From: a virus
DNA length: 49,216 bases
Strand: one strand, 5' to 3'
IMG/VR virus record: IMGVR_UViG_3300010379_000009
Span: 1 to 49,216 of that record
The translations under genes and the position numbers were made by a program. A model generated the notes under the pieces. That model saw nothing but the letters and a program-made list of their open reading frames with translations, did not search any database and had not been told where the DNA came from. How positions within the stretch are numbered: position 1 is the first letter of the stretch; each line of letters begins with the position of its first letter. Shown here one piece after another: positions 11,117 through 47,595 of this stretch.

Positions 11117-11424
11117 GGGGTCACCGCGCCGAAAGTTTGCACGAATTGCGAATAAGTGTTGATGGCTTGCGCGACCTTCTTCTGGAACAAGTGGCCATGC
11201 CGCGGCGTCTGCATCACCGCCAACGCGGCGAGTGCTTGCTTGCACGTGACGCCGCGGACTATCCGCATGCGCGGTGCACGGTAATAGCGTGGGGTACCGC
11301 AGTCTTCCACCAAGCCGGCGTCCCACAACGCGCAGATCTGGTGCATCGTGATGCCGAGTCGGCTGCACTGCACCGTAAAGGTCGCCCACCGGTGCAGCCG
11401 CGACTCCCTGCGTCCGCGCTTCAC
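11113..11424 (-). CDS. Winged-helix-like protein of the second W subgroup
   Basis: Encodes 103 aa from GTG at 11424. SRLGITMHQICALWDAGLVED aligns without gaps with the HTH of the next gene, followed by MRIVRGVTCKQALAALAVMQ. A helical tail contains VAQAINTYSQFVQTF. The three-gene tandem run 10305-11424 appears to have arisen by duplication. Confidence 0.74.
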   Translation of the reverse strand: MKRGRRESRLHRWATFTVQCSRLGITMHQICALWDAGLVEDCGTPRYYRAPRMRIVRGVTCKQALAALAVMQTPRHGHLFQKKVAQAINTYSQFVQTFGAVTP

Positions 11425-11891
11425 TTCCGCCTGCCCTTCTTGGGCGGTGGCATCGCGGGAGCCGGCGCGGATTCGGCCAAGCATTCGCCTGGCGAAATCA
11501 CGCGGTACCTTTTCGTGGGACTGCCGCGTTGGATCACGCCGTCGAGCAACCCGCGCCGCACCCACTCCACCACCTTGGCGTACGGCACGCGGTACCAGCC
11601 CATGACCACGCCGGCCGTCACCCACACGTCCGCGGCGCTGAGGTTGTCCACCACGCGGTAGGTTGCGCCGTCCGGGTCCAGGTACGGCACGCCGGGGAGC
11701 GACGGCGACGCGCGCGGGGCCAGCGCCGCGTCAGTCTGCGCCTTGGCTTGGTTGAGCTGCTCCACGGCGCGCACCTGGCGCGTGGTGCGAATCAACATGT
11801 CCGTCTTGGGTTGTGCGGCCAGCCAGTCCCTAGTTGCGTACAGCGTTTTGCCGTCCTTGATAACTCGCGCGCTCACGGCAGGTGCTTCCAT
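11421..11891 (-). CDS. Hypothetical protein with possible winged-helix C-terminus
   Basis: Encodes 156 aa starting MEAPAVSARVIKDGK. The middle has VPYAKVVEWVRRGLLDGVI followed by KRYRVISPGECL, resembling the helix-wing pattern of family W. It ends in a Pro/Lys-rich tail (PPPKKGRRK). The ATG overlaps the previous gene by 19 bases. Function unknown. Confidence 0.7.
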   Translation of the reverse strand: MEAPAVSARVIKDGKTLYATRDWLAAQPKTDMLIRTTRQVRAVEQLNQAKAQTDAALAPRASPSLPGVPYLDPDGATYRVVDNLSAADVWVTAGVVMGWYRVPYAKVVEWVRRGLLDGVIQRGSPTKRYRVISPGECLAESAPAPAMPPPKKGRRK

Positions 11892-12309: not shown

Positions 12310-12616
12310 TGCTGCGAGTAGATTGTGCGCGCGGCGGCCGTTCGTCGCAACGGCGGTCCTCCACGGTAACGTGGTACCCGAACGCGCGCAGCATGTGCGC
12401 CGCGTTGGTGCCGCGTTTGGCGCCGCGCACCTTGGCTTCCCACCGGTCGCCGTCGGGCCCCGCGGTGAAGTGGAACGGTCCGGTCACATACTCGCCACCG
12501 CACACCGCCGCGGCGTTCTGGCAGGCGTCGCGATCCACGTAACGCGCGCGGTGCACCACCACGAGCAGATGGTCGGACATGGCGCGCACGGTGGCCCTGA
12601 ACGTCGGAGTGCTCAC
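12287..12616 (-). CDS. Hypothetical protein
   Basis: Encodes 109 aa from GTG at 12616 (GTGA overlap); ATG at 12580 (MSDHLLVVVHRARYVD) is an alternative start. The main part contains beta-like strands and a Gly/Cys-rich middle (CQNAAAVCGG), and ends in a basic Arg-rich tail. No known motif. Confidence 0.65.
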   Translation of the reverse strand: MSTPTFRATVRAMSDHLLVVVHRARYVDRDACQNAAAVCGGEYVTGPFHFTAGPDGDRWEAKVRGAKRGTNAAHMLRAFGYHVTVEDRRCDERPPRAQSTRSNGAVRRH

Positions 12617-12858
12617 TGCTGCAACGCCAGCCACAACGCGGCAGCCGCTTGTTCGGGTGCAACACCGTTCGCCAGTCTGTACGCAAAACCGTGCCACTCC
12701 ACTAACCCGGTGCTTATCAAGTACGTGCACATTGAATAGGAACTTTCGTCTCCGGCGCCGATGTCTTTCCACCGCACCAGCAACTTGCCGTGCTCAACCT
12801 CACTGCCGCCCAACACGGCGCGAATGAAGTGCCCGGCATTGTACGCGCAACTTCTCAT
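12613..12858 (-). CDS. Small winged-helix-like protein (family W)
   Basis: Encodes 81 aa. The helix TYLISTGLVEW is followed by FAYRLANGVAPEQAAAALWLALQQ, matching family W and especially the next upstream protein (12855-13079), which also ends LWLAVQQ. The two are tandem duplicates with an ATGA overlap. Confidence 0.77.
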   Translation of the reverse strand: MRSCAYNAGHFIRAVLGGSEVEHGKLLVRWKDIGAGDESSYSMCTYLISTGLVEWHGFAYRLANGVAPEQAAAALWLALQQ

Positions 12859-13079
12859 TGCTGCACCGCCAGCCATAGCACGGCGTGCGCCTGCTCGTAT
12901 GTCGCGCCAGGTGTGAGCGCCCACATGTTGACCCCCACAAGCCGGATCATCCCGGCCGTGCGCAACGTGTTGATCAACCCCACGTCGCCCTGGCGCAACG
13001 ATGCGCGTAGTAAAGCGGCAACCGCCGCATCACTCCCCGCGATGCGATGCAGCAGGCCAAGCACCGTGTACCCTTCCAT
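12855..13079 (-). CDS. Small winged-helix-like protein (family W)
   Basis: Encodes 74 aa starting MEGYTVLGLLHRIAGS. INTLRTAGMIRLVGVNMWAL is followed by PGATYEQAHAVLWLAVQQ. It is the family W member closest to the portal gene, 18 bases past the portal stop, and is the tandem duplicate of the next gene. Confidence 0.77.
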   Translation of the reverse strand: MEGYTVLGLLHRIAGSDAAVAALLRASLRQGDVGLINTLRTAGMIRLVGVNMWALTPGATYEQAHAVLWLAVQQ

Positions 13080-19950: not shown

Positions 19951-20198
19951 GGCGTCGGTGCTTTCTTGCCCACGCGTTGCGGCCAGCTCCAACACGAGTG
20001 CTGATAGGTCTCGCTGAACTGCACGTGCATCCGCGTCTCCTGCACGCCTGGGCGAAGCACCGTGAGCGTCACCGTGCCGTCCGCCAGCACCTCCGTGATG
20101 ACGGCCGCGCGCACGATGGGCGCACCTGCGTCCACGTAGTGCACCGTGCGCCCCACCGTCTCGCCGTGCGGACCGATCGTCGTCTTGATCTCGTTCAT
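19947..20198 (-). CDS. Conserved small phage beta-barrel-like protein
   Basis: Encodes 83 aa starting MNEIKTTIGPHGETVG. The order VGRTVHYVDAGAPIVRAAVITEV, then strands and a C-terminal HSCWSWPQRV, is a widespread phage/prophage pattern of unknown role, where a Trp-rich end follows a small beta domain. ATG overlaps the previous stop as ATGA. Confidence 0.74.
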   Translation of the reverse strand: MNEIKTTIGPHGETVGRTVHYVDAGAPIVRAAVITEVLADGTVTLTVLRPGVQETRMHVQFSETYQHSCWSWPQRVGKKAPTP

Positions 20199-20545
20199 CC
20201 GTGTACCTCCGTGAATAGCACGCAAGCTACATTGCGCGCGTGCTCCAAAGTCACACCAGGTGCGAGTCGCCACAGGTTCGAACCACGGACATTTTCACAC
20301 AACACCCCGCGCACCGACAACCTGCGCAACGCCCCCGAGTACCGCCAACCCTTGGCCAACCGCCACCGTCGATCGAGCTTGTTGCGCCGCGGCACGAGCA
20401 CGCCGGCCTTGACGAGTTTGGCTACCGTGACCGCGGACAAGTCGTCACCAGCGCCAAACCACACAACTGTCGATGCGATGTGGCGCATCACCTGATGCAC
20501 GCCCATCCACGGGTTGCGCCCAACCGCGTTGACTGCACCACTCAC
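20195..20545 (-). CDS. Winged-helix-like protein (family W)
   Basis: Encodes 116 aa from GTG at 20545. Two helix-turn patterns are visible: VAKLVKAGVLVPR followed by basic KLDRRWRLAK, and GALRRLSVRGVLCEN followed by NLWRLAPGVTLEHARNVACVLFTE, the second being a full family W unit. The protein is therefore probably a double winged helix. GTGA links it to the next gene. Confidence 0.77.
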   Translation of the reverse strand: MSGAVNAVGRNPWMGVHQVMRHIASTVVWFGAGDDLSAVTVAKLVKAGVLVPRRNKLDRRWRLAKGWRYSGALRRLSVRGVLCENVRGSNLWRLAPGVTLEHARNVACVLFTEVHG

Positions 20546-20805
20546 GTGAACAACACCAGCGCGGCGTCCCGTACCTGCGCGGCCGTCATGCCCTCGGGGA
20601 TCTTGAACCAGTACTCACACGGCTCGTGCCGCAACTCGACCTGCTCGAGCAAACCGCGGTTTGCCAGTCGAATACAGAACGCGTAGTGCACGCCAGAATC
20701 ACCGCTTAGGTGGTTCATTGCGAGCACGCCGAGCCACATGTCCGTCGCGTGGTAGGACGCGCTTCGCCACTCCGCCATGGCTGCAAGGTGAGCCATGAGA
20801 ATCAC
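20542..20805 (-). CDS. Small winged-helix-like protein (family W), tandem copy
   Basis: Encodes 87 aa from GTG at 20805; ATG at 20796 is also possible. It shares TDMWLGVLAMNHLSGDSG, HYAFCIRLANRGLLEQ and QVRDAALVLFT with the next upstream gene almost position by position. With 21056-21307 it forms a tandem triplet directly after the terminase gene. Confidence 0.83.
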   Translation of the reverse strand: MILMAHLAAMAEWRSASYHATDMWLGVLAMNHLSGDSGVHYAFCIRLANRGLLEQVELRHEPCEYWFKIPEGMTAAQVRDAALVLFT

Positions 20806-21059
20806 GCGAACAACACCAGCGCGGCGTCGCGCACTTGTTCCTTGGTCAAAGTGGGTGGCAGCGCGAACCGCCATCCCGTGTCGCGGCGTTGCTTCCGTGC
20901 GCGTGCCGCTACAAGCACGAGCAACCCGCGATCTGCCAGCGCCATGCAAAACGCGTAATGCTGCGACGCGCCGCCGCGTAAGTGCCGCATGCCGAGCACG
21001 CCCAGCCACATGTCGTTGCAGTGCCAAGCCGTCGCGTCACGCGTGCCCGCGAGTCTCAC
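20802..21059 (-). CDS. Small winged-helix-like protein (family W), tandem copy
   Basis: Encodes 85 aa from GTG at 21059. NDMWLGVLGMRHLRG, HYAFCMALADRGLL, then a basic wing (ARARKQRRDTGWRFAL) and TKEQVRDAALVLFA. The basic wing makes DNA binding plausible. It is the best template of family W. Confidence 0.83.
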   Translation of the reverse strand: MRLAGTRDATAWHCNDMWLGVLGMRHLRGGASQHYAFCMALADRGLLVLVAARARKQRRDTGWRFALPPTLTKEQVRDAALVLFA

Positions 21060-21307
21060 GGCTCACCTTGCAGCATGATGATCGCGGCCACCTGTCCGGC
21101 CGACATACCACGCGGCAGCGCGTACCTGTCTTGCCCCCACACGCACAGCAACAAGCCCTGCTTCGCCAACTCTTGGCAAATGTTGTGCGCGCCCACGCGC
21201 TCACCGCCTTCGGCATGCATGAATATGTGCCGTTGCGAGAACCCCAACACGCTGTACCACATGGCCGTGGCCGTGTACCAAGCCGTCACGTCACGCGTGC
21301 GCACCAC
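21056..21307 (-). CDS. Small winged-helix-like protein (family W), tandem copy
   Basis: Encodes 83 aa from GTG at 21307, 14 bases after the terminase stop. RDVTAWYTATAMWYSVLG and ICQELAKQGLLLCVW, then ALPRGMSAGQVAAIIML, align with the two downstream copies, though more diverged. The start is not certain because no clear Shine-Dalgarno site is seen; RTRDVTAW aligning with GTRDATAW supports it. Confidence 0.75.
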   Translation of the reverse strand: MVRTRDVTAWYTATAMWYSVLGFSQRHIFMHAEGGERVGAHNICQELAKQGLLLCVWGQDRYALPRGMSAGQVAAIIMLQGEP

Positions 21308-21321
21308 ACTAAGTTGCGCGG

Positions 21322-22821
21322 CTAGCGGCGTAGCGTGGTCTGTCGCCCGGTCTGCACCTTGCCCACGCGGTGGCTCGCCGCCTCGCGCGCGATCCAACTC
21401 GCCATCAACTCGTCCGGCGTGTGCGCCATGGGCTGGTAGTGCAGGGCGCCGCGAATCCATGCGTCAACCTCCTTCGTGAGCGGGCGGCCGCCAGCGCTGG
21501 GAATGACCCACAGCCCGCGCTCGAACTCCACGGCCAGGCTCTCGATGCCGAACGTGGCATCCGCCTTGTTCGCTCCGGTGAAGAAGTTGCGCACGGGCAC
21601 GTCGGGCGCCTCCACTTTCGTGAATTGCGTGATGAACTTTTGCGCCGCGTTCGACTCCACCGCGATGATCGAGCGATACCGCCGGTGCGTGTCGATGATG
21701 CGCCGGATGATCTCCGGGCCCGCCCAGTGACCCGACTCCACGCACAGCACCTCGCGTTGCCCGCTCGGCCATATACATATGGTAAACAGCACGCTCAGGT
21801 CGCCCTTGGCGTTCTCGTCCGTGCCCAGGTCCACGCCCGTGTACGTGCGGTAGCCCGGTGGCAACGCCGCCAGCCTCTCGGGCATGGCGCGCCCGTCGCC
21901 CAAGCGCAGGCACTCCAGGAACCACGCCCGCTTGAACCGCGCCGAGGCGTCGTCTCTGGCCAAGCAATGGAGCTGCCTGGCCGCCTCGTTGGAGCCGTTC
22001 TCGAGCGTCCACGCAGCGATGCGCACGAGCGGCCACCGGGACACCCAGCGAGGCGTTCCGTCGGGGTTCGTGACGGGGAACCGGTACGCGCGCCAAGCCG
22101 GGTTCTCGGCCAGCTTGTGCATGAGGTCTTCCGGGTGCCACGCGTTGCCGATCATCTCGACCGATGCGTGCTGCACGAGTCGCCCGGTGATCGTGCTCTC
22201 GTACCACCCGATGGTCATGTCGCGTTGGCTGGGCGTGCGGCTGTTGCCCCAGTCGAGCACGTCGTCCATCACCACGCGATCGAGTCGCGAGCCCATGATG
22301 CCCTGCGTGCCGATACCCGCCGCGATGATGCTGTAGTCCTTCCCCGCGGCGCGCCGCCCGGCCACCGTGATGCGGCTGTCTGACCACACGCTACCCGGGC
22401 GCAAGTCGGGGAACACCTCGTGCAATGCCTCGCTCGATCCAACGTAGCCCTTGATTGCCCGGAGGATCTTCTCCGCGCCCTCTTGGCTGCGCGAGATGAT
22501 CGCTTGGCGCAAGTTGGGATTGCGCCCCATGAGCCACAAGGTACGCAACACGGCAACGTTTTGCGTTTTGCCGGCCTCGACGTGCGACCAGATGACCACG
22601 CGCCGGTGCGCATTGCACAAGCGCTGGAACTCCTCGTGCACCGGCGCTTGCTTGAGCGGCGCGCCCGTCGACTCGTCGCGCCCCACGAACTCGATGAACT
22701 CGTTGACGTCGTTGCGCGCCACGAACAGCCGCATCTGGTACGCCTGCTCGATCAGCACTTGGGCGGCGGCCGGGTTCAGCACCGTCCAGTCCTTCGCCTG
22801 CTCTAGCCGCTCCATCGCCAT
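21322..22821 (-). CDS. terL: Terminase large subunit
   Basis: Encodes 499 aa, the usual length. The ATPase centre has a Walker A-like loop SHVEAGKT near residue 82 with Lys85, and a Walker B RVVMDDVLD near residue 183. The nuclease domain starts YTGVDLGTD (Asp331) and includes IIAVESNAAQKF further on. The protein cuts and translocates concatemeric DNA into the procapsid through the portal. ATG at 22821 is selected over TTG at 22830. The small subunit candidate is at 23611-24327. Confidence 0.93.
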   Translation of the reverse strand: MAMERLEQAKDWTVLNPAAAQVLIEQAYQMRLFVARNDVNEFIEFVGRDESTGAPLKQAPVHEEFQRLCNAHRRVVIWSHVEAGKTQNVAVLRTLWLMGRNPNLRQAIISRSQEGAEKILRAIKGYVGSSEALHEVFPDLRPGSVWSDSRITVAGRRAAGKDYSIIAAGIGTQGIMGSRLDRVVMDDVLDWGNSRTPSQRDMTIGWYESTITGRLVQHASVEMIGNAWHPEDLMHKLAENPAWRAYRFPVTNPDGTPRWVSRWPLVRIAAWTLENGSNEAARQLHCLARDDASARFKRAWFLECLRLGDGRAMPERLAALPPGYRTYTGVDLGTDENAKGDLSVLFTICIWPSGQREVLCVESGHWAGPEIIRRIIDTHRRYRSIIAVESNAAQKFITQFTKVEAPDVPVRNFFTGANKADATFGIESLAVEFERGLWVIPSAGGRPLTKEVDAWIRGALHYQPMAHTPDELMASWIAREAASHRVGKVQTGRQTTLRR

Positions 22822-22835
22822 GTGGTTCAACTACA

Positions 22836-23060
22836 CTATGCCAACAAAACCCGCACCGCGTCTACCACCTGCGCGAACTCCACACCCTCGCGCAACCGCA
22901 AAAAAGCGTCTTCGTTCCACCATTCACACAGCCCGGTTTGCACGGCGAGCTCACCGACGCTCATGTCTAGGTAGTACTGGTGCGGCGTGTCGCTGCCGGT
23001 GCGTTTATCCGGTAACGCCAGCGCGTGAGCAAGCGCCCACGTGGAGTACAGCTTACGCAA
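22836..23060 (-). CDS. Small winged-helix-like protein (family W)
   Basis: Encodes 74 aa if TTG at 23060 is used. VGELAVQTGLCEWW is followed by FLRLREGVEFAQVVDAVRVLLA, and the last ten residues (VDAVRVLLA) are the same as those of the next gene. It lies 14 bases before the terminase ATG. The start is uncertain. Confidence 0.72.
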   Translation of the reverse strand: MRKLYSTWALAHALALPDKRTGSDTPHQYYLDMSVGELAVQTGLCEWWNEDAFLRLREGVEFAQVVDAVRVLLA

Positions 23061-23601
23061 GCAACACCCGCACGGCGTCTACAAGCTGCTCCCCGGTCAC
23101 GCCGTCGCGTAGCTCGCACACGTGCCGGCGGCCGTTGTACTTGAACAGCGTGACCGCGGTACGCATCGCGAGGATTGCGCGGTCAAAGCCACGCCATATC
23201 TCGTCAATAGGCAACAGCCGTGCCCCGTTCTTATACCCTTGCAATGCAAGGTGCACGCGCGTGCACCAGGTGTCCCACGACGCCGGTGTAGTGTCGATCA
23301 CGCGCGCACCAGCTGCACGGCGTCGCACAGCTGGTCCAGCGATGATGCCCTTAAGCTGACCCAGCGTGATGCCCACACGCGGCACGAAGCGGTTGATCCC
23401 ACCACTCACAGCATACCCGTTCGGCGACAGGTCAAAACACCACGCACCCAACTCCTTGGGCAACCGCGTAAGCATGCGCATGTCTGCCGTCCACACATCC
23501 ATCCCACGTTGCCGTCGCGTTGGACGCACGGCCCAGTTGCGCGCGTTGTACCCGAGCAACTGACTCGCGGTGTACCCCTTGGCGTTACGTGCGCGCGGCA
23601 T
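23053..23601 (-). CDS. Two-domain winged-helix-like protein (family W)
   Basis: Encodes 182 aa from ATG at 23601. The first half has LTRLPKELGAWCFDL and VPRVGITLGQLKGIIAG; the second has AILAMRTAVTLFKY and CELRDGVTGEQLVDAVRVLLA. Each half looks like one family W unit, so it may be a fusion of two copies. The second unit ends like the next gene (VDAVRVLLA). A DNA-binding role is possible. Confidence 0.76.
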   Translation of the reverse strand: MPRARNAKGYTASQLLGYNARNWAVRPTRRQRGMDVWTADMRMLTRLPKELGAWCFDLSPNGYAVSGGINRFVPRVGITLGQLKGIIAGPAVRRRAAGARVIDTTPASWDTWCTRVHLALQGYKNGARLLPIDEIWRGFDRAILAMRTAVTLFKYNGRRHVCELRDGVTGEQLVDAVRVLLA

Positions 23602-23610
23602 GGTGCAACC

Positions 23611-24327
23611 TCAGTTGTTCTTGTTATTGCGCAAGGCATCCTCGAGTGACTGCTCGAGCTTGTCGCGCTCTGCAATACCTTGTGCGCGCTCGTACGTCTT
23701 CGCCATGCCCTCGAGTTGCTCGACGATCTGGTCAGGTGTCATTCGGTCCACCTGCACACCCAAGATTTCAATTGGCTTACCCGTGCGCATGCGCTCGATC
23801 TCCAACGCGATACGCATGACTTGCAAAGCACGTTGCACGACGATAGACGCCGTGCTTGTCATGGCTCGCAGGTCTTGCATCGAGAGCGTGGCCACGTTGG
23901 CGTTCACGCGCGCCTGCATTTCGTTGATCAGCCCATTGCTCAGGAACACCGCGCGACCGGCCACCATGGCGTAGTTGATCGCCACCTTCCTAAGCTGGCG
24001 AGTTCCTTGCGCTTCTTCCTCGCGCGCCTTCACGGCTTCCTCACGCTCGATCAACCGGCGCTCCGCTTCCTTCTGCGCGAGTGCCTTTTCAGTCTCCGCA
24101 CGCATCACTCGCGCGGCCATGCGCTCGTCCTCGAAGATCTGTTTGATGGACACGCGAGCGCACGCCGGGCGTAACAGGCCGTCGTTGAACGCCTTTGCGG
24201 CCGTGGCCCGCGCGCACCCGGCGCACCTCGCGGCGTTCGAGTGGTTGTTAGGGCTCTCCCGGTACGCCTTCACGAGCAGGTTCCACTGCTCCTCGGTCAA
24301 CGGCTTGAATCTCCCGGTGGTGTTCAT
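23611..24327 (-). CDS. Probable terminase small subunit
   Basis: Encodes 238 aa. Residues 10-60 (LTEEQWNLLVKAYRESP followed by NAARCAGCARATAAKAFNDGLL) form an HTH like that of small terminases and other DNA-recognition proteins. Residues 65-120 are a charged coiled coil, and the rest is helical, fit for oligomerisation. It is followed by the large subunit after two small genes. An alternative is an HTH regulator; position and architecture favour the packaging role. ATG at 24327 is taken; a TTG lies just upstream. Confidence 0.75.
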   Translation of the reverse strand: MNTTGRFKPLTEEQWNLLVKAYRESPNNHSNAARCAGCARATAAKAFNDGLLRPACARVSIKQIFEDERMAARVMRAETEKALAQKEAERRLIEREEAVKAREEEAQGTRQLRKVAINYAMVAGRAVFLSNGLINEMQARVNANVATLSMQDLRAMTSTASIVVQRALQVMRIALEIERMRTGKPIEILGVQVDRMTPDQIVEQLEGMAKTYERAQGIAERDKLEQSLEDALRNNKNN

Positions 24328-24344
24328 AATTGCCAACTCACGGT

Positions 24345-25121
24345 CTACGCGCCCCTTTTGGTCTTCCGTCGCGGTTTGGGTGTCATCGCCCCGGCAACCG
24401 CACCGTTTGCACCCACCTTACCACGCGCCGGCGCGTTAGAGTTGCGAGGCTGTGCGTGCACGTCCACGGTGAGCGCCACCGCCTGCACTTGGGAGATCCC
24501 GAGTTGCTCGGCAATGGTCACCACCGACTCGCCGTCTTCCGCCAAGCGAATTGCCTCGGCGGCGTCCTTGAGCGGCGTGCCGCCTTGTTGTGCTAGCACT
24601 TCCTGAGAACTGGCCAGCCACGGCGTCACCTTGGCCAACTGCTCGTCCACCGCGCGCACTTTCTCGAGCGTGGTTTCGATGGCGCGGCGCTGGTTGGCCA
24701 ACGTACCCATGAGCACCCCGCGGCGCTGGCGCAACTCGGCTTCCGTCTCGGGTTCCTTGGGCGGCGCGCGGAACGCCAGCCCCGCGTCCGAAAGCGCGTT
24801 GCGAAGCTCGGCGATGCCCTTGCCGTTTATATAAGTGTGCTTGCGCAGCCACGACTCGGTGTGCTGCGAGAGTTCGCCCAGCGTCTCGATGTCCGCGTTC
24901 TGGCACGCGTTGGCCGTTCGCACGCTCAGGTCGACGTCGTCCAGGGGTGTGAGCCGGTCCATCTTACCCGCGTAATACCGCACGGGCGTGCTGGACGCCG
25001 GAGGCGCGGGCGGGTGCATGATGTGCTTGTCGGGCTTGGGTGCGAGCGCGCCGGGCGGAATGTCGGTGCCGTACTTGCTGTCGCAAAACGGCTTCTTCTT
25101 GGTGGGTGGTTTCTTTGCCAT
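24345..25121 (-). CDS. RNA polymerase alpha-CTD-like domain protein with HTH tail
   Basis: Encodes 258 aa. Residues 57-118 (LTPLDDVDLSVRTANACQ to ALSDAGLAF) align without gaps with the bacterial RNA polymerase alpha-subunit C-terminal domain, which binds UP-element DNA and activators. Residues matching E. coli Arg265, Asn268, Lys298 and Glu302 are present (Arg68, Asn71, Lys101, Glu105), while Gly296 and Ser299 are changed (Asn99, Gly102). A coiled coil (about 123-170) and an HTH-like segment (about 185-220, VVTIAEQLGISQVQAVAL) follow. No alpha N-terminal domain is present. It lies just before the terminase genes. Binding promoter DNA or replacing alpha function is inference. Confidence 0.85.
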   Translation of the reverse strand: MAKKPPTKKKPFCDSKYGTDIPPGALAPKPDKHIMHPPAPPASSTPVRYYAGKMDRLTPLDDVDLSVRTANACQNADIETLGELSQHTESWLRKHTYINGKGIAELRNALSDAGLAFRAPPKEPETEAELRQRRGVLMGTLANQRRAIETTLEKVRAVDEQLAKVTPWLASSQEVLAQQGGTPLKDAAEAIRLAEDGESVVTIAEQLGISQVQAVALTVDVHAQPRNSNAPARGKVGANGAVAGAMTPKPRRKTKRGA

Positions 25122-25125
25122 GCCA

Positions 25126-25383
25126 CTAGGTTGCGCGCGCGAGGGCGCGCGAGAACAAGTACGCGTCGCGGAACGCCTCGACGGTCACGCCGTCCGCCAT
25201 GCGAACGCGGCACCCTTGATTGCCTGGTCTCCAATACTTCACGCCGTTGTCTGCTTCGATGTACCCGCGTTGCAATCCCCAGTCGAGCAGGTCGCCCCAC
25301 TGCATGTCCTGCGCTACGCCGCCCAGGTGGTACCCGGCCAACACCCACGCAGGCTGCCACTCGTGCGAGACCGGTCTAGCCAT
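25126..25383 (-). CDS. Small winged-helix-like protein (family W)
   Basis: Encodes 85 aa starting MARPVSHEWQPAWVLAGY. LLDWGLQRGYIEADNG is followed by a strand-rich wing and RMADGVTVEAFRDAYLF. It is the third of a small run that ends just before the alpha-CTD-like gene; the distance to that gene is only four bases. Confidence 0.75.
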   Translation of the reverse strand: MARPVSHEWQPAWVLAGYHLGGVAQDMQWGDLLDWGLQRGYIEADNGVKYWRPGNQGCRVRMADGVTVEAFRDAYLFSRALARAT

Positions 25384-25630
25384 TAACGAGCACCACGATG
25401 ACGTCGTGCAACTGCTCGGGTGACAACGGGTGCGCGAGCTTCACGCGCAAGCCGTGTGCCCTGTCCTGCTGGTACACGTACCCGGCGATCACCAGCTGGT
25501 CGAGCACCCACCACGCCCCCGCGTCGCCGTGCAACGTCCACGCTTGCGTTGTCACCGTGCACTCAGACAACCAACGCAACAAGGTGTTAGCAGGTAACCA
25601 ACACTCACCCCGCCAGAATGCGGCGTTCAC
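25376..25630 (-). CDS. Small winged-helix-like protein (family W)
   Basis: Encodes 84 aa from GTG at 25630 (GTGA). WVLDQLVIAGYVYQQDR is followed by VKLAHPLSPEQLHDVIVVLVNG. The N-terminal half carries several Trp residues. Overlap of eight bases with the next gene. Confidence 0.76.
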   Translation of the reverse strand: MNAAFWRGECWLPANTLLRWLSECTVTTQAWTLHGDAGAWWVLDQLVIAGYVYQQDRAHGLRVKLAHPLSPEQLHDVIVVLVNG

Positions 25631-25905
25631 GCGAGCACCACTGCGAGCACTGCGCGCGCTCGGCTTAGCGTGCCCGGCAACAGCCGGTATTCATACATTC
25701 CCCCCGCCGAACGCGCTTCCACCATGCCATTGGCCACAAGTACGCCAACCACTGAGCGCGAACTGCCCATGATCTTCGTGGTGTGGTGATAGCCCAGAAT
25801 GCGGCCCAGCAACGCCCACGCGCCGTGCCACTGCAATGACTTGCACGCCCCGCCGCGCGAACGGCGTTTCCACGGCTGCTTGCGCCGCTGCTTGCGCCTG
25901 ACCAT
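25627..25905 (-). CDS. Small winged-helix-like protein (family W), basic N-terminus
   Basis: Encodes 92 aa from ATG at 25905 (an adjacent GTG is possible). It begins with a very basic segment (VRRKQRRKQPWKRRSRGG), then VVGVLVANGMVEARS and EYRLLPGTLSRARAVLAVVLA. The basic extension would strengthen nucleic-acid binding. First of three tandem family W genes. Confidence 0.76.
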   Translation of the reverse strand: MVRRKQRRKQPWKRRSRGGACKSLQWHGAWALLGRILGYHHTTKIMGSSRSVVGVLVANGMVEARSAGGMYEYRLLPGTLSRARAVLAVVLA

Positions 25906-25923
25906 CACCCTAAGGTTGCGCGC

Positions 25924-26430
25924 CTAGCGCCCCGCCGGCACCCAACCCTTGCCGAATGAATCCTTGCCTGCGTGCTCCGGGCTGCTCCGCACGTCTGAGA
26001 GCCGTTCAATCTCTTCATCCTCCATACCGAGGCGCTGCTCGATCTGCTCCGGCGTAAGCCCTTGCTCAAGCAACGCCCGCACGATCGCGCCCATCTTGAG
26101 CACCCCGTGTTGCCCGCGCGCCCTGTTGTGCCGCACGGTGGCGATCATCTGGTCCGCCACGCTCTTGCCGCCATCCAGGTACACCACGGGGCACCGGTCG
26201 CCACTGGCCGCGCGCACCTCGGCGTCCGTGCTGGCCAATGTCCAGCGATGGAACCCGTCCACGATCTCGCCCCCCGTGCGCGCGACGATGGGTTGCGTCC
26301 AACCGTCCTCGAGAATGCTCCGCTTGAGTAGCTGCATCTCGGGCGTGAACACCTTGTTCGGGTTGTAGTTGTTCGCGTGCAGCGTGGCCGGCTCTACCCA
26401 GCACACGTCACTGATCGGATGGATCTTCAC
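25924..26430 (-). CDS. ParB-like protein, IbrB type
   Basis: Encodes 168 aa from GTG at 26430, overlapping the stop of the PAPS-reductase-like gene as GTGA. A ParB/sulfiredoxin-like domain is visible: NNYNPNKVFTPEMQLLKRSI, then WTQPIVAR and EIVDGFHRWTLA. A C-terminal helical part follows (VRALLEQGLTPEQIEQRLG). IbrB of E. coli pairs with IbrA, and the same order and coupling are seen here. The pair's chemistry is not known. Confidence 0.84.
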   Translation of the reverse strand: MKIHPISDVCWVEPATLHANNYNPNKVFTPEMQLLKRSILEDGWTQPIVARTGGEIVDGFHRWTLASTDAEVRAASGDRCPVVYLDGGKSVADQMIATVRHNRARGQHGVLKMGAIVRALLEQGLTPEQIEQRLGMEDEEIERLSDVRSSPEHAGKDSFGKGWVPAGR

Positions 26431-27560
26431 GTTCCCTCGAATCTCGTACCGCCATCGCCCGCCACCTGCACACTCTTGCGCACCTTCAAGTCCCCGCGCA
26501 CGGCCACCATGTACAAGAACTGCCAACTCAACCCCACATCCGCGGCATCAGGTATGGGCACACCCTTGCCGTTGCGTGTCACGTGCGCCCCCATCTCTTG
26601 CTTGATCCGCGCGGCGATGGCGCCGCGCTGCTGCGCCGGCCACTTCTGCAACGCCGCCGCGATGGCCTGCTGCCACGTCATGCCCTCGGGCGGGCTCTCC
26701 GCGCGTTCCCCGTGTGCGTACACCGGGCTCTGGCAATAGCGCCCCGCCGTGGCTGCACCGGGCACGCGCTGCACCATCTTCTCCCACAACTCGGGCCAGC
26801 ACTGCGCGTACTGCCACAAGCCGCGCAACGGTTCCTCGCCGTACGGTGGGCACACGCGCTGCGCGTGTCGCGAGATACCTGCTGCGGTCATCACGTCGTA
26901 CGCCCGGTTGTAGTCCCACCCCAGCGCACGCGGTGCAGTCCACACGTCCTCCGTAGTCCAGTCGTACACCGGCTTGGCCAGCACCACGTGCTTGGCGTGC
27001 GTGTCCTGCGCGAGCCAGTTGTCCGTAACGCGCTTCGCCACGCTGCGGTACCGGCGCAAACTCTCGGCGGCGCGTATGCCCATGACCAACGCCACCTGGC
27101 CACCGCTGGGCGGGAACACCAGAGCGTTGCACACCGGGATGGCCTGACGGTCGAAGCCGGCGAGTTCCGTGGTCGCCCCCGGCGGCAGTGGCCGGCACCA
27201 CTTGGCCCGGTCCTCGGGCGCCCAGGGGTGCCAATACGGGTGCTTGCGGGAGCACGCGTTGCGGTGCTTCACAGGCACGCACAGCCACCGCAACGCCACG
27301 TCCGCCAACGCCCGCACGCGCGCCACATACTCTATGGTCTCGGGCTGTATCGCTTCCTCATCCCAAAACACCACCTCGAGTGGCAGCCGGCCGCGCAAGC
27401 GCGCCTCATCCAACGTCACGTGCAGCGCCACCGTGCTGTCTTTGCCACCGCTGAATGACACCGCCACGCGATCGAACCGGTCGTACAGCGTGCGCACGCG
27501 CTCGCGGGCCAGCGTGAGCACGTCCGTCTGCACGCTCTGCTTCTTGTACGTCAACGACAA
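26427..27560 (-). CDS. PAPS-reductase/ATP-pyrophosphatase family protein, IbrA type
   Basis: Encodes 377 aa. The adenylyl-binding loop is SFSGGKDST (Gly38-Ser42). EVVFWDEEAIQPETIEY, WLCVPVKHRNACSRKH and PWAPEDRAKWCRP are typical of the IbrA/DUF3440 branch, which lacks the catalytic Cys arrangement of true PAPS reductases. DndC, a DNA phosphorothioation protein, belongs to the same superfamily. It is coupled to the ParB-like partner and next to a cupin. The start is TTG at 27560; TTG at 27554 is possible. Substrate unknown. Confidence 0.86.
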   Translation of the reverse strand: MSLTYKKQSVQTDVLTLARERVRTLYDRFDRVAVSFSGGKDSTVALHVTLDEARLRGRLPLEVVFWDEEAIQPETIEYVARVRALADVALRWLCVPVKHRNACSRKHPYWHPWAPEDRAKWCRPLPPGATTELAGFDRQAIPVCNALVFPPSGGQVALVMGIRAAESLRRYRSVAKRVTDNWLAQDTHAKHVVLAKPVYDWTTEDVWTAPRALGWDYNRAYDVMTAAGISRHAQRVCPPYGEEPLRGLWQYAQCWPELWEKMVQRVPGAATAGRYCQSPVYAHGERAESPPEGMTWQQAIAAALQKWPAQQRGAIAARIKQEMGAHVTRNGKGVPIPDAADVGLSWQFLYMVAVRGDLKVRKSVQVAGDGGTRFEGT

Positions 27561-27563
27561 GCA

Positions 27564-28292
27564 CTACCCCCCGTGATTGAAGACGTTGGCTCCGATGAAC
27601 GTGCGATTGAGCATGGGGTGCGCCTGGTCCGTCGGGCCCCAGTCAGAATCGGGATGGTACGCGATCACGTCCATGGACTCGCGCGCGGTGTCGGTGCGGA
27701 AGCTGTGCATCTCTTGCGGGTGCAGCAAGAACACGCACCCGTGCGACAGCTCCTCCGTCCACGTGTCGCCCTCGCCCAACACCTTGGGGCCGAACGCGTG
27801 ACCTTTGCCACGCGCCACGATGCCCAGGCGAATGGATGGGTGCGTGTGCTGCGATTGCACGATGCCTGGAGGAAAGTGCAGGTGGTTGAGCACTGGATCG
27901 CCGAGGCGCGGCGGGTAATACAGCATCGAGTCGCTGCACCCGTCGATGTAACTCAAACGCCCGCGCTCCTCGATCCGCCCCGCCGCGTACTGCCCGCGGT
28001 ACCCGAAGCGCGTGATAAGCACCGCGAGATCCCCCGCGGCCACAGTGACCATCCCCACGCCGGCCAACGCGAACCACCCGCCCATCTTGAGATCCAGCGA
28101 GCCGTGCTCGCTCTGGACCTTGAGACTGCCGTGGAGCGCGTACCCGAAGGTGTGCTGCGTGGCACCGCCGAACTCTTTCTGCCCGCCCACCACGTCAAGC
28201 TTGGATGGGTACATTCCCGCGGTCGCGTCTATGCCCTCACCCGGTGACGGGTTGCGAAGTATTCTCACTGGTTGGCGCCTCTGCGACGGCAT
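27564..28292 (-). CDS. Cupin-domain protein
   Basis: Encodes 242 aa. Two jelly-roll halves are visible: an N-terminal one (GGWFALAGVGMVTVAAGDLAV) and a C-terminal cupin with HTHPSIRLGIVARGKGHAF, then a Glu, and CVFLLHPQEMHSF, giving the usual metal-binding His-x-His and His. The ATG at 28292 makes it overlap the preceding ParB-like gene by 56 bases; an internal ATG (MYPSKLD) would reduce this. A dioxygenase or sugar/nucleotide-modifying role is possible. Confidence 0.82.
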   Translation of the reverse strand: MPSQRRQPVRILRNPSPGEGIDATAGMYPSKLDVVGGQKEFGGATQHTFGYALHGSLKVQSEHGSLDLKMGGWFALAGVGMVTVAAGDLAVLITRFGYRGQYAAGRIEERGRLSYIDGCSDSMLYYPPRLGDPVLNHLHFPPGIVQSQHTHPSIRLGIVARGKGHAFGPKVLGEGDTWTEELSHGCVFLLHPQEMHSFRTDTARESMDVIAYHPDSDWGPTDQAHPMLNRTFIGANVFNHGG

Positions 28293-28980
28293 TCTGGCAC
28301 ATCACCATAAACGCTTCAACGTTCGTTCGCGCCCCGGCGCGCTTGAGTGTTTGCAGCGCCTGGTACGCCCGCAAGTTCTGCTCCGGCGTGAGCGTGAATG
28401 ACAGCGTCACGTGCTCGCCGCCAACGCGCGGCGCGGCACCGGTTTCACCCAATCCGCCAGCCTCGGCGATCACACCATCCAAGAACTCCGTGGTGCCCAC
28501 GCGCTCCTGCAACGCGGCCATCTCAGTGTCGCTCCACCCCAGCAAATCCGCCCTGTCCAACTCACGCATGGATTCGACCAACGCCGCTTCATCCCACCCA
28601 CCTATCTCACCCAAGCGGTTGTCGACCAGCAGGTACGCCTCGGCCTCCTTGTCGTCCTTGAACGCCGCGCCGCGCAACACCGGCACCAGCCACTCGCCGT
28701 CGGGCCCCACGCGCACGCGCCCCGGGGGCGGCTTGCCCGCGGCCTTCAAGCCCTCGTACGCTTCCTTGCGTCCATGGCCCGCCACGAGGCGCCCGGTGCG
28801 TTCATCGAGCACCAGCGGCGTCACGTGCCCGAACCGGTTGAGCGACGCCTGCGCGGTCTCCAGATCGTGCTTCTTGGGGTTGCGCGGTGCGGTCTGCAGC
28901 GCGCCCAGCGCCATGTACTCGATGCGTAGCTCTTGCTCGGGTTCGGCTGGCGCGACGGCCGCCTTGCTCTTCTTGGCCAT
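28237..28980 (-). CDS. ParB-like nuclease-domain protein
   Basis: Encodes 247 aa. The ParB/Sulfiredoxin domain has APRNPKKHDLETAQASL, GHVTPLVLDERTGRLVAGHGRKEA, and a helical extension (ALVESMRELDRADLLGWSD). Such ParB-domain proteins in phages often sit next to DNA methylases or act as regulators; no methylase domain is fused here. It is the second of three ParB-like proteins in the window and lies between the cupin and an unknown gene. Confidence 0.85.
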   Translation of the reverse strand: MAKKSKAAVAPAEPEQELRIEYMALGALQTAPRNPKKHDLETAQASLNRFGHVTPLVLDERTGRLVAGHGRKEAYEGLKAAGKPPPGRVRVGPDGEWLVPVLRGAAFKDDKEAEAYLLVDNRLGEIGGWDEAALVESMRELDRADLLGWSDTEMAALQERVGTTEFLDGVIAEAGGLGETGAAPRVGGEHVTLSFTLTPEQNLRAYQALQTLKRAGARTNVEAFMVMCQNAVAEAPTSENTSQPVTG

Positions 28981-28987
28981 GATCCCC

Positions 28988-29443
28988 TTACTTGTACACC
29001 CGCGCGTTGCCATGCTCCACCACCCGCTTGACGTGCGCGATCTGCGCCTCGCGGATGCCCCACTCGAGGTACGCCGTCACGCCCGGCTCTTCGTGTCGCC
29101 CGAGAACGGGCGCCCCACCCGGTGGGCAACGCTCGGCATCCGAACGCGCCACGGCGGCCACCGCCAACAGCCCCTGCACGAACTCGTCGGTGAGGCTCGG
29201 CAACTTGACCAGCAAGCGCGTGATGGTGCTGCTAGCCAGCAAGTTCAGCTGCCCGCCGTTCACCAATGCCGCCACGCGCTCGTCCTGCACGTGCAGGGCA
29301 AGCGTGTGGCCCATGTGCCACGTGCTCGTCTTGTCCGCGGTGTAGCACGCGCTGTGCGCGATGCCTGGCACTCGAACAAACTGGTGATACGCGTGCACGA
29401 CAGGCCACTTGAGCAGGCATCCCTTGCAATCGCCGCGATTCAC
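28988..29443 (-). CDS. Hypothetical protein
   Basis: Encodes 151 aa from GTG at 29443 (GTGA overlap). CKGC near the N-terminus and a C-terminal helical part (LTDEFVQGLLAVAAVARS) are the visible features. The middle has His residues (HMGHTLALHVQ) that could bind metal. No family recognised. Confidence 0.72.
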   Translation of the reverse strand: MNRGDCKGCLLKWPVVHAYHQFVRVPGIAHSACYTADKTSTWHMGHTLALHVQDERVAALVNGGQLNLLASSTITRLLVKLPSLTDEFVQGLLAVAAVARSDAERCPPGGAPVLGRHEEPGVTAYLEWGIREAQIAHVKRVVEHGNARVYK

Positions 29444-29898
29444 GGCGGCGGCCCGGGGTGCGGGTACGCGGCCGTGAGGTAATCGAGCGGCTTGCCGATG
29501 CCGTCGCGATGGAACGCCAGGTCATTGGGCGTGCCGTGCACGTAGTGCGTGAACGGCCCGCGGCGCAGGTACGCGATCTCCCACGGCTGGAACCGCTTGT
29601 ACGGCGGCTCGAGCAAGCCGTCATCCACCATTTGGTTGAACACGTCGAGCTGCGTGAACTTGCCGTGCTTCCAACACAGTTGCACAGCGAGCCACAGCGC
29701 GTACTTCGCCCGCCACTCGTCCGCGTCCGACATGTCTTCCGTAGTCTCCACCTTCTCGAGCTCCTCTACCAGCCGCTCAATCGCATCCAGCGCCACCTCT
29801 TGGAAGTCCGCCACGCCGCGCAGCACCGGCTCGAACGGCGTCTCACCCGTGACGCGCATGATGCGACAATCGAGCTGGTCCAGCCTGTACGTGTTCAT
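29440..29898 (-). CDS. Hypothetical protein
   Basis: Encodes 152 aa starting MNTYRLDQLDCRIMRV. It is acidic and helical (VALDAIERLVEELEKVE), with a Trp-rich middle (DEWRAKYALWLAVQLCW) and a Pro-rich end. Overlaps with neighbours (ATGA, GTGA) place it in the MazG operon. No family recognised. Confidence 0.72.
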   Translation of the reverse strand: MNTYRLDQLDCRIMRVTGETPFEPVLRGVADFQEVALDAIERLVEELEKVETTEDMSDADEWRAKYALWLAVQLCWKHGKFTQLDVFNQMVDDGLLEPPYKRFQPWEIAYLRRGPFTHYVHGTPNDLAFHRDGIGKPLDYLTAAYPHPGPPP

Positions 29899-30389
29899 GC
29901 GCCGTCCTTGCGATCGCGCGAGCGCGCCTTGGTAAATCCGTTCGGGTAGCGTGCCCTGAGCTTGGCCATGTTCGCCTGCGCCACCTGCTCTAGTGTCACC
30001 CCGATGCGCTCGGCCACGCGGTCGAGATACCACAGCGTGTCACCCAACTCTTCCACGATCTTGGCGCGCATGGCGTCGTCCATCACATGCCCGTGGTACA
30101 CAACCTTCTTGACCTTGCCGTACACCTCGCCCGCTTCCTCGCACAAACACCCAGCGTGATACTCAAGCGGGAAGTGTCCCTCGGGGTTCGAGTCGGTGCG
30201 CTCCACGTGCTGGCGGTACACGGCGAACGTTCGAATGACCGCGGGTTCGGACGCGGTTGCCCTGTATGCGTCGTATGCGGCATCACCGGTGATTGCCAAA
30301 TCGCCACACGCATTGCATCGCAACCCGGACAGCGATTCCCACATGCCGCTCTGCGGATGCTTCGGGCAATGGAACTTAGGCTCGCTCAC
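29895..30389 (-). CDS. MazG-like nucleotide pyrophosphohydrolase with zinc-ribbon N-terminus
   Basis: Encodes 164 aa from GTG at 30389. The MazG metal site is EEAGEVYGKVKK followed by EELGDTLWYLDRVAERIGV, i.e. the ExxE and ExxD pattern on two helices. The N-terminal 30 residues carry CPKHPQ and CNACGD, a possible zinc ribbon. MazG enzymes hydrolyse (d)NTPs or ppGpp and are common in phages, where they adjust nucleotide pools. Confidence 0.84.
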   Translation of the reverse strand: MSEPKFHCPKHPQSGMWESLSGLRCNACGDLAITGDAAYDAYRATASEPAVIRTFAVYRQHVERTDSNPEGHFPLEYHAGCLCEEAGEVYGKVKKVVYHGHVMDDAMRAKIVEELGDTLWYLDRVAERIGVTLEQVAQANMAKLRARYPNGFTKARSRDRKDGA

Positions 30390-30661
30390 GCCGTCACCGT
30401 GGGCGGCGTGGGGAACGGGTAGTCTTCCGCTTGCGCACCGTGAAACACCCCGAGGGTTCCATCCACCTTGGGATCGAACGGGCCCCGCCGCCGCACGTCG
30501 AGCAGCCACACGTGCCCCGGCTCCTCCAGCCCGTCCAGCGCCCCGTCGTCGCGCATCTCGGCGTGGATCGCCGCCACCGTCGTCCCGCCCCGCTTGGCCG
30601 CCTGGCGCACGCCCACGGCGATGCCGTACTTGACCAGGAACTCGCGCTGCTCGGGATTCAT
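30386..30661 (-). CDS. Small hypothetical protein
   Basis: Encodes 91 aa starting MNPEQREFLVKYGIAVGV. Overlaps the ATPase gene stop (TGATG) and the next start (GTGA). REFLVKYGIAVGVRQAAKRGG is a basic helix, then beta-like stretches and a Pro-rich end. No family recognised. Confidence 0.68.
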   Translation of the reverse strand: MNPEQREFLVKYGIAVGVRQAAKRGGTTVAAIHAEMRDDGALDGLEEPGHVWLLDVRRRGPFDPKVDGTLGVFHGAQAEDYPFPTPPTVTA

Positions 30662-32325
30662 CACGACACCCTGCCTGCTTCCACGCGCAGGTGCTTCACC
30701 GGCTGCAGAAGCTCCGCAGCCTCCACTCGGTGCGAGATTACCACCACCGGGCGATCCGCCGCGATCTGCCGAATCGCCTCGCACACCGCCGCCACGCCGT
30801 CCGCGTCGAGCGCGTCAAACACCTCGTCCATCCACAACGTACCAGGTTGCGCGCCCGCGGCCGCGGTGGCCACCTCCGCCAACGCCAACAAGATGGCCAC
30901 GTCCAGGCGCCGGCGTTCGCCGCCAGAGCAGCCGTGATACGACTCGCCGCCACCGCACCCGTGCACCTCGATCGAGATGGCGTCGCGCACCGCACCACTG
31001 GCCTGCTCCGTGTACGACTTGAGCTCGAGGCGCATGCCGGACCCGGCGATCTGCCACAGCCACCGCGCCGCCGCCTGCTCGATTCCAGCCAACGCGTCCG
31101 TCAGGATCTTGGCGCGCACCCCCGTGAGCGAGAGCACGCGCTCGCACGCCTCGAGCTCAGCCACCGCGTGCGCGGCATCGAGCACAGCATCCGCCAATTC
31201 CTCGAGCCGCTCGTCCACCGCGCGCGCGTCCACGTCCGCCACCGCCAGCACACTAGAGCAGCGGCTATGCTGCGCCGCGTACGTCTCAGCGTCGCGCATA
31301 TGCAACAGCCACTCGGACCGGCGCGCGGACAGCTCCTCGCGCTCCCCGGACAACTCCACCAGTTCGTGCGCAACCTGCGCCGACTCGTAGTCGGTGGACG
31401 TCTCCGCTTCCAGTGCCTTGGCCGACGCGGCGTTGGCCGCCGCGTGCGCAGCCGCGATACGCTCCTGCGGAAACGGCTGCGCGCACACCGGGCAGTCGCC
31501 GCGCAACAGCTTAGCCAAGTCCGCCGCCGCCGCCCGCGACGCACTCTGCGCGCGCTCGACCAGCGCGGACATCTTGCGATCCTTGTCGCGCAACGCGGCC
31601 ACCACCCGGTCGAGCTTGGCCACACTCTCGTCCAGCTTACTCAACTGCCGCATGCACAACTCGACGCCGTGCTCCGGCTGCTTGAGCCCGACGAGTTCCG
31701 CCTGCGCACGCACGCGGCGCGCCACCATCTCTTCCGCCCGCACGCGCTGCATGTCGCGCTCGCGCTTGGCGTCTTCGTGCGCGCGCGCGGCCACCTTGAG
31801 ATCGACCCGGCAGTTGGCCAGCGCGACGTCAAACCGCTCAAGTCCGAACACCCGCTCTAGCAGCCGCTTGCGGTCGGCGTCCGTCGCCCCGGTGAAGTGC
31901 GCGGCGTCCGCGCTGGACAGCACGTGCGTGCGCCGCCACGTGTCGTGGTCGCCCGCCACCGCCTCGATGGCCGCCTGCATCTTGGTGGGCGTGTCGTGCG
32001 TCAACGGGTCCCACGCGTAACCGTTCGGGCTGGGATCGACCCTGCGCACCATCACGGATAGCGCCGGCTTGTCCTTCTCCGTGCGCTCGCGCGTGACGCA
32101 CACACCTTCCGACCACGCGCTCACCTCGCCAGCCTCACCGCGTCGCCACGGCTTGCGCCCGCGCAAACTCTTGCCCCACACCGCCACCGACACGGCTTCG
32201 ACGAGCGACGACTTGCCGGCGCCGTTGAATCCGGTGACGAGCACCACGCCACGGTCTGGCAACGACACGTCGAACGGTTGTGCGTACGACATGAAACCCC
32301 GCCCCGTGATGCGCCGCACGATCAT
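30661..32325 (-). CDS. Rad50/SbcC-like recombination ATPase
   Basis: Encodes 554 aa. Walker A is GFNGAGKSS near residue 32; long coiled coils flank a zinc-hook CPVC at 278-281; the ABC signature is CSGGERRRLD, Walker B LWMDEVFDALD, and the H-loop VVISHR near the C-terminus. Length is shorter than bacterial SbcC (over 1000 aa) but close to phage gp46-type proteins. With the Mre11-like nuclease at 32701-33828 it would process DNA ends for replication-linked recombination. ATG at 32325 overlaps the previous stop as ATGA. Confidence 0.92.
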   Translation of the reverse strand: MIVRRITGRGFMSYAQPFDVSLPDRGVVLVTGFNGAGKSSLVEAVSVAVWGKSLRGRKPWRRGEAGEVSAWSEGVCVTRERTEKDKPALSVMVRRVDPSPNGYAWDPLTHDTPTKMQAAIEAVAGDHDTWRRTHVLSSADAAHFTGATDADRKRLLERVFGLERFDVALANCRVDLKVAARAHEDAKRERDMQRVRAEEMVARRVRAQAELVGLKQPEHGVELCMRQLSKLDESVAKLDRVVAALRDKDRKMSALVERAQSASRAAAADLAKLLRGDCPVCAQPFPQERIAAAHAAANAASAKALEAETSTDYESAQVAHELVELSGEREELSARRSEWLLHMRDAETYAAQHSRCSSVLAVADVDARAVDERLEELADAVLDAAHAVAELEACERVLSLTGVRAKILTDALAGIEQAAARWLWQIAGSGMRLELKSYTEQASGAVRDAISIEVHGCGGGESYHGCSGGERRRLDVAILLALAEVATAAAGAQPGTLWMDEVFDALDADGVAAVCEAIRQIAADRPVVVISHRVEAAELLQPVKHLRVEAGRVS

Positions 32326-39390: not shown

Positions 39391-39545
39391 CGGTACCCCG
39401 CCGCGACCATGCCCAACACCAGCAGTGAGATCCACCCCAGCGTTCCGTAAAATGCCACGTTCTCACCCCACAAATTGTAGAGCCCCTGCTCCACGAACCC
39501 GGTGGTCACCAAGAACGCAGCCACGGCCAGCAACACGCGCACCAC
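39387..39545 (-). CDS. Small two-segment membrane protein
   Basis: Encodes 52 aa from GTG at 39545: VVRVLLAVAAFLVTTGFVEQ, then a turn with WGENVAFYG, then WISLLVLGMVAAGYR. Two hydrophobic segments cross the membrane. Its stop overlaps the polymerase start as GTGA, so translation is coupled. Unknown role; it mirrors the 41-aa membrane protein on the other side of the polymerase. Confidence 0.62.
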   Translation of the reverse strand: MVRVLLAVAAFLVTTGFVEQGLYNLWGENVAFYGTLGWISLLVLGMVAAGYR

Positions 39546-46380: not shown

Positions 46381-47035
46381 TGGAAATCTCCTCGCCCAAC
46401 ACGTTGAGAAGCCCTAGCGCCATGTCGCGCGTGGTGCCGCCGGCCTTGCGCAACTTGCGCTTCACCGTCACCAGCTGCTTGCGCGACCCGAACTTGAGCT
46501 CGAGCACGAACGGGCGGTCGGCCACCGCGGGTTCGTCCTCCACCGCGCCGCCGTGCCCGAGCAACGGCTGCTCGGGCTGCGCCATCAGGTCCGCCACCTC
46601 GGACTCGGTGAACCCGGTCATCACGGCGAGCTCGTCCATGTCCAGACCACCGGCCAGCATCTCGGTCATGGCGCCCGCCGCGAGCGTCAGGTCGACATCG
46701 CCGCGCAGGTGATTCATAGCCAGCCGGTACGCGCGAATCTGCACCGGCGTCATGCGACGCACCACGGCCTGCACGTGCCGCAACCCCAACTCGCCCAGCG
46801 CCTTCACGCGGTGGGCGCCATCCACCACATCGAATTCAGCATCCGCGCCCAGACCGATGGGCGATACGAGGATGGGCTGCAGAAAGCCCCCCTCTTGAAT
46901 AAACGCTTTGAGCGACGCGAACCGCTCGGCACTCATCCTATTGGGGTTGTCCGCGTCCGGCACCAGGTGCAGCACGGCGAGCGACAGCGTGCACGTATTA
47001 GTGATGAGCGTGGCTTCCAAGTCTCGCTGGTTCAT
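46373..47035 (-). CDS. ParB-like protein
   Basis: Encodes 220 aa. The ParB domain is NPNRMSAERFASLKAF, GGFLQPILVSPIGL and DVVDGAHRVKALGELG, followed by a helical HTH-like region (AVMTGFTESEVADLMAQ). The C-terminus is basic. It differs from the two other ParB-like proteins by its early position next to a sigma factor. Coupled by ATGA to the sigma-factor gene. Confidence 0.86.
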   Translation of the reverse strand: MNQRDLEATLITNTCTLSLAVLHLVPDADNPNRMSAERFASLKAFIQEGGFLQPILVSPIGLGADAEFDVVDGAHRVKALGELGLRHVQAVVRRMTPVQIRAYRLAMNHLRGDVDLTLAAGAMTEMLAGGLDMDELAVMTGFTESEVADLMAQPEQPLLGHGGAVEDEPAVADRPFVLELKFGSRKQLVTVKRKLRKAGGTTRDMALGLLNVLGEEISNE

Positions 47036-47595
47036 ACGGCGATATTCTCTTTCCACAACTTGTGTAGTTCTGCGTCGTTGCGACACAACTTGCGCACGCG
47101 GCCTGCGAGTTTCTGCACGGCGCGCGAGTTCGTCCCGTGGTACGCGGCGATCGCGGCCGGCTGGTGCTCGCCGCTGAGCACGGCCAAAGCAAACGGCAAC
47201 CCCTCGGCACCAACGAGCTCAAGCAGCCGCTCGCGCACCCGGTGCTCGAACGCCGCGCGGGCGTACGCGTCGCCGGCGTCCGCCCGGCCATCCGCCCGTA
47301 TGTCGTCGTGCAATGCGCACCGGCGCACCCCGTTGGCCATCTCTGGGCGGTGCTTGAGCCCCGAGAGCGGTAAGGCCAGCTGCGCGGATTCGCGCTTGCA
47401 CGCGCGGAGCGCGATCGTCCACACGTACGGGTAGAAATCGCACTTGCCCGAGTCGAAAGTGCGCACCGCCTTGAGCACCTCCACCCACGCGGCTTGTTCG
47501 AGGTCCTCGTGCACGCCGCGCCCGCGGTCGTACCGCTTGGCAGCGGCGCGGCACGCCTGCTCCATCTTGACCAATTGCTCGGGCGTGGGTGTCAC
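47032..47595 (-). CDS. Sigma-70-family RNA polymerase sigma factor
   Basis: Encodes 187 aa from GTG at 47595. Region 2 is visible at residues 20-90: ACRAAAKRYDRGRG, EDLEQAAWVEVLKAVRTFD and FYPYVWTIALRACKRES, with the aromatic-rich -10-binding helix. A region-4-like HTH is at about 150-180 (PAAIAAYHGTNSRAVQKLAGR). Short, ECF-like in length. It would redirect the host RNA polymerase to phage promoters. The alpha-CTD-like protein at 24345-25121 could complement it. Confidence 0.84.
   Translation of the reverse strand: MTPTPEQLVKMEQACRAAAKRYDRGRGVHEDLEQAAWVEVLKAVRTFDSGKCDFYPYVWTIALRACKRESAQLALPLSGLKHRPEMANGVRRCALHDDIRADGRADAGDAYARAAFEHRVRERLLELVGAEGLPFALAVLSGEHQPAAIAAYHGTNSRAVQKLAGRVRKLCRNDAELHKLWKENIAV

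Follow-up and report, generated by a model that had tools for sequence, protein, structure and literature searches.

A freestanding RNA polymerase alpha-CTD homologue, joined to a predicted long helix and a probable helix-turn-helix, encoded beside phage terminase genes

What might a phage do with the alpha-CTD of RNA polymerase when it is encoded apart from the alpha-NTD? The question is posed by a 258-aa protein whose gene lies in a 49,216-nt stretch of viral DNA (here called the window). The domain stands near the head of the chain, which continues into a predicted long helix and a probable helix-turn-helix (HTH), and both ends of the protein carry basic tails. The ORF is uninterrupted and its GC content by codon position is coding-like, in a record of 66% GC. 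Coordinates of this gene, its parts and the surrounding features are collected in Table 1.

Table 1. Features of the alpha-CTD locus and of related contigs
Feature	Position	Strand	Basis
258-aa protein: free alpha-CTD, long helix and HTH	24345..25121	-	ORF; PF03118 above cut-off
Alpha-CTD-like domain, residues 57-118	24768..24953	-	R265, N268, K298 and E302 equivalents
Long helix (predicted), residues 127-179, probably a coiled coil	24585..24743	-	single-sequence model (low confidence); periodicity
Probable HTH, residues 183-222	24456..24575	-	HTH_7/HTH_23 below cut-off; three short helices in single-sequence model
241-aa protein, candidate small terminase subunit, directly downstream	23611..24336	-	similarity to proteins upstream of TerL in relatives
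Terminase large subunit (TerL)	21322..22830	-	phrog_38, E 1.5e-48
Three small paralogous ORFs immediately upstream of the alpha-CTD gene	25126..25908	-	iterative HMM
ParB-like protein, cassette start	25924..26526	-	PF02195, phrog_2159
Cassette: ParB, PAPS-reductase-like (DndC-like), cupin-like, ParB	25924-29013	-	largely common to ~10 viral contigs
Sigma-70 region 2 protein (phage sigma-like factor)	47032..47595	-	PF04542, 36.4 bits
Paralogous small ORFs (1)	5197-5460, 11113-11625, 12613-12924, 12855-13079, 20195-20545, 20542-21027, 20802-21059	-	
Paralogous small ORFs (2)	21056-21460, 22836-23060, 23053-23601, 25126-25383, 25376-25630, 25627-25908, 45881-46228	-	
Single-chain proteins joining alpha-CTD to MerR-like HTH and sigma region 4-like HTH	L023:5335-6234, L024:3947-4882, L138:2183-3097		virus contigs

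Identity and fold of the domain

Profile searches place the protein firmly in the alpha-CTD family. The RNA_pol_A_CTD model (PF03118) matches residues 57-111 at 32.5 bits (E 6.9e-8), above its curated cut-off of 23.8, and a phmmer search of PDB chains gives a gap-free alignment of residues 57-117 with the E. coli alpha-CTD (E 5e-6 to 8e-6), with identity at 22 of 61 positions (36%). The gap-free alignment of residues 57-118 proposed in the initial annotation is thereby confirmed, and this segment is a genuine RNA polymerase alpha-CTD homologue. Among NCBIfam models, those for rpoA are the top matches. The full-length rpoA model reaches 34.9 bits against a cut-off of 227.8, because the CTD alone is present; the match covers that part only, so that the protein does not classify as RpoA and, as had been claimed, contains no alpha-NTD. 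A generic helix-hairpin-helix (HhH) identity was rejected because in the profile searches the alpha-CTD models are clearly ahead and generic HhH families score nothing.

For the full-length protein, a single-sequence structural model was too low in confidence to be read as a whole (pLDDT 51.5). Residues 45-126 were considered separately, using an alignment of 25 rows that comprised the query and 24 relatives, of which 21 are rpoA CTDs and 3 are viral, and gave a model with a mean pLDDT of 84. Its top matches among solved structures are alpha-CTDs (1z3e, with Z 11.0, 1lb2, 1coo and 9zum), and the best of them include complexes with AT-rich DNA, CAP and Spx. A comparison of predicted structure with alpha-CTDs, 1coo among them, had been proposed at the outset, and no unrelated fold emerged from it. 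Because the rpoA CTDs in the input alignment favour an alpha-CTD fold, the result is partly circular and is taken as supporting evidence of compatibility only.

Contact surfaces

Conservation was assessed at positions that we take, from general knowledge, to be the DNA-, sigma- and activator-contact determinants of the alpha-CTD. In the DNA-contact set (265, 268, 269, 296, 298, 299, 302) the phage protein reads RNANKGE against RNCGKSE in E. coli, with four of the seven residues identical. Retention of the Arg265, Asn268 and Lys298 equivalents had been noted before, correctly if incompletely: Glu302 is also kept, and the remaining positions carry the changes C269A, G296N and S299G. The sigma-contact set (257, 258, 259, 261) reads LDDD against VDDE, so that the acidic positions are largely retained, and the activator-contact set (285-288, 290) reads TESWR against TEVEL, a surface mostly lost. 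UP-element binding, activator bridging and the sequestering of host factors, all raised in the initial annotation, are putative roles.

Arg265 of alpha is crucial for UP-element contact, and it is the residue targeted by T4 Alt and ModA (PMC2988021). This precedent for phage attack on Arg265, together with partial conservation of the 265 surface, brings to mind a host-takeover decoy, which would occupy host UP elements or activators and so deprive the host polymerase of its upstream contacts, with an effect like that of T4 ModA when it modifies Arg265. Such a decoy seems quite improbable, however, given that the residues for activator contact are mostly gone and that the gene has packaging and late genes, not early ones, as its neighbours.

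The C-terminal half

The initial annotation had a coiled coil and an HTH following the alpha-CTD, and the analysis bears out a long helix with a likely HTH after it. In the single-sequence model residues 127-179 form a 53-residue helix, at low confidence, and residues 126-180 show a hydrophobic periodicity of 3.5 residues (shuffle p 0.0004). HTH_7 and HTH_23 match residues 186-211 below the Pfam cut-offs (19.6 versus 23.8 bits, with the C-terminus searched in isolation).

Comparison with known alpha-CTD proteins

With RpoA the protein shares the homologous domain and its fold, but it has neither alpha-NTD nor linker, and its alpha-CTD is placed N-terminal to the predicted coiled coil and HTH. 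At least six further phage lineages also have free alpha-CTDs, in some cases joined to HTH domains. The named carriers are Bacillus phage Goe8 (gp5), Microbacterium phages Mazun, Morrill, Atraxi and TrippleS, Mycobacterium phage Zenteno07 (gp68) and Ruegeria phage V16 (gp23), and the domain occurs likewise on IMG/VR contigs L022, L023, L024 and L138. Every aligned member keeps the Arg265 and Asn268 equivalents, and six of seven have an acidic residue at position 261. These proteins are mostly labelled hypothetical or DNA-binding, and literature searches found no papers on their function. The class is already known, small, scattered and uncharacterised; the architecture of the 258-aa protein is new, and no full-length relative of it was found in IMG/VR or in 20 related contigs.

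The other phage proteins resemble this one in being phage-encoded and in lacking an alpha-NTD, but their flanking parts are unrelated and in most of them the alpha-CTD is C-terminal. Those of L023, L024 and L138 (the last a close copy of the L023/L024 type) also join an alpha-CTD to HTH domains on a virus contig, although the domain order is the opposite and the HTH families are others. A further parallel comes from BREX PglW, in which an alpha-CTD-like domain is followed by winged HTH modules (PMC12839542). Here the order of parts is alike, the alpha-CTD-like domain preceding HTH-type modules, but the HMM match to the 258-aa protein is weak (E 2e-4) and partial, at 14.9 bits against a cut-off of 990, which places the protein outside PglW; moreover, PglW models run to about 1400 aa and include a kinase and an inactive AAA+ domain, neither of which is present in the phage protein.

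In Ruegeria phage V16 the alpha-CTD lies before a pyrophosphatase domain, a fusion that bears on a different account of the fold. The 258-aa protein might be a general DNA-binding protein, concerned with replication, repair, the nucleoid or DNA modification, in which the alpha-CTD fold serves only to bind the minor groove in the manner of HhH domains, unconnected with polymerase. HhH-like folds are reused widely, the lower-ranking structural matches of the domain model include Rad51-paralogue domains, and the gene adjoins a ParB/PAPS-reductase-like cassette. Against these points must be set the specificity of the sequence match, which is to alpha-CTD and not to generic HhH families, and the retained acidic sigma-contact positions; we judge this account unlikely.

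Several other candidates were set aside. MT839982 (L018, MT839982.1), the sole candidate relative from the phage collection, is bacterial: it carries a fragment of rpoA next to a gene for an L17-like ribosomal protein. Further MT and OR records of that collection that lack annotation may likewise be cellular rpoA and were left out of the count, MT839982 alone having been checked. Among the matches listed (at least 80 genome matches) no cellular free alpha-CTD was seen, all being in frames of the length and position typical of rpoA, some of them truncated. A weak alpha-CTD-like match in L053 (genome of the related phage L050), at 16.7 bits and below cut-off, lies elsewhere in the L050 genome and has no pairwise similarity to the 258-aa protein.

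Gene neighbourhood and packaging

With a ParB-like gene on its upstream side and the terminase genes downstream, the alpha-CTD gene is tightly packed: only 4 bases separate it from the small ORF upstream and 8 bases from the next gene, and it lies about 1.5 kb upstream of TerL. The 241-aa product of that next gene has no family match in Pfam or PHROG; its relatives upstream of TerL are in L045 (27.7%, E 1e-9) and L050 (22%, pairwise E 6e-6). L025 and L027 share the cassette, and in them the genes after ParB encode a small terminase subunit and a TerL.

This arrangement raises the possibility of a packaging accessory, that is, a DNA-recognition protein working with terminase, whose alpha-CTD-like head would keep phage DNA close to where packaging takes place. 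Proximity to the candidate small terminase gene and to TerL speaks for such a role, as does the small-subunit gene found after ParB in L025 and L027. But the 258-aa protein matches no terminase PHROG and no terminase small-subunit family, its only hit being phrog_664 (DNA binding protein, E 0.037), and the 241-aa protein is a separate candidate for the small subunit. Nor is there an alpha-CTD gene beside TerL in contigs that share TerL, or in relatives in which the packaging region is preserved. We conclude that the gene is an accessory one, inserted here, and does not belong to the conserved packaging set; a packaging role appears rather unlikely.

Sigma factor and promoters

A phage sigma factor had been invoked as a partner of the alpha-CTD protein. 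The sigma-like gene itself is borne out by its PF04542 match, and profile searches detected no sigma region 4 in the product. The proposed link fares less well, since only one of six other free alpha-CTD records sampled, some of them possibly fragments, contains a sigma region 2 protein (Goe8). The UP-element consensus has no match in the whole window, and no sigma-70-type promoter matches in 21000-31000, although the promoter type of the host may differ from those sought.

Proposed function

We tentatively favour the view that the 258-aa protein is a phage-encoded, freestanding alpha-CTD DNA-binding regulator consisting of an alpha-CTD head, a coiled-coil dimer and an HTH, and rate its prospects at somewhat under even. 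The head would grip DNA, probably in an AT-rich minor groove, by way of the Arg265/Asn268/Lys298 surface, the coiled coil would dimerise the protein, and the C-terminal HTH would supply a second, sequence-selective DNA contact. Most likely, phage genes would be regulated from promoter-upstream DNA, and sigma region 4 might be touched by way of the 261 surface, whose acidity is retained, in the manner of the polymerase-tethered alpha-CTD. The regulator reading is supported by the PF03118 score, the gap-free alignment and the alpha-CTD fold, by the invariant Arg265 and Asn268 and acidic 261, and by PglW and the other phage joins of alpha-CTD to HTH. It is weakened by the G296N, S299G and C269A changes, by the missing UP-element and sigma-70-type promoter matches in the regions searched, by the lack of a full-length homologue among those sought, by an HTH below Pfam cut-offs and by the location in the packaging region.

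A bolder proposal, which we hold to be doubtful, is that of a detachable alpha-CTD acting in trans. Held at phage promoters by the HTH, it would present DNA and region 4 of a host or phage sigma factor with its 265 and 261 surfaces, giving an upstream promoter contact that dispenses with the alpha subunit. If the protein is active at promoters, a domain that is ordinarily attached to the polymerase would be working as a separate, HTH-guided module, and phages would be a source of naturally detached alpha-CTDs with which to ask what the alpha-CTD does without the alpha-NTD.

Other features of the window

About 14 small ORFs, all on the minus strand, form one paralogous family by iterative HMM, members recruited in late iterations being less certain. 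They are scattered between conserved genes, many of them around the terminase region. Several look-alike small proteins also stand in a row upstream of the terminase genes in L045 (504-4813); by eye, these belong to another family. The TerL of a 93%-identical relative (L002:3-1967) appears, again by eye, to carry an in-frame intein near the Walker A motif, which the TerL of the window does not have. Finally, a 904-aa ORF at 36721-39435 (minus strand) joins a uracil-DNA glycosylase domain, at its N-terminus, to a family A DNA polymerase.
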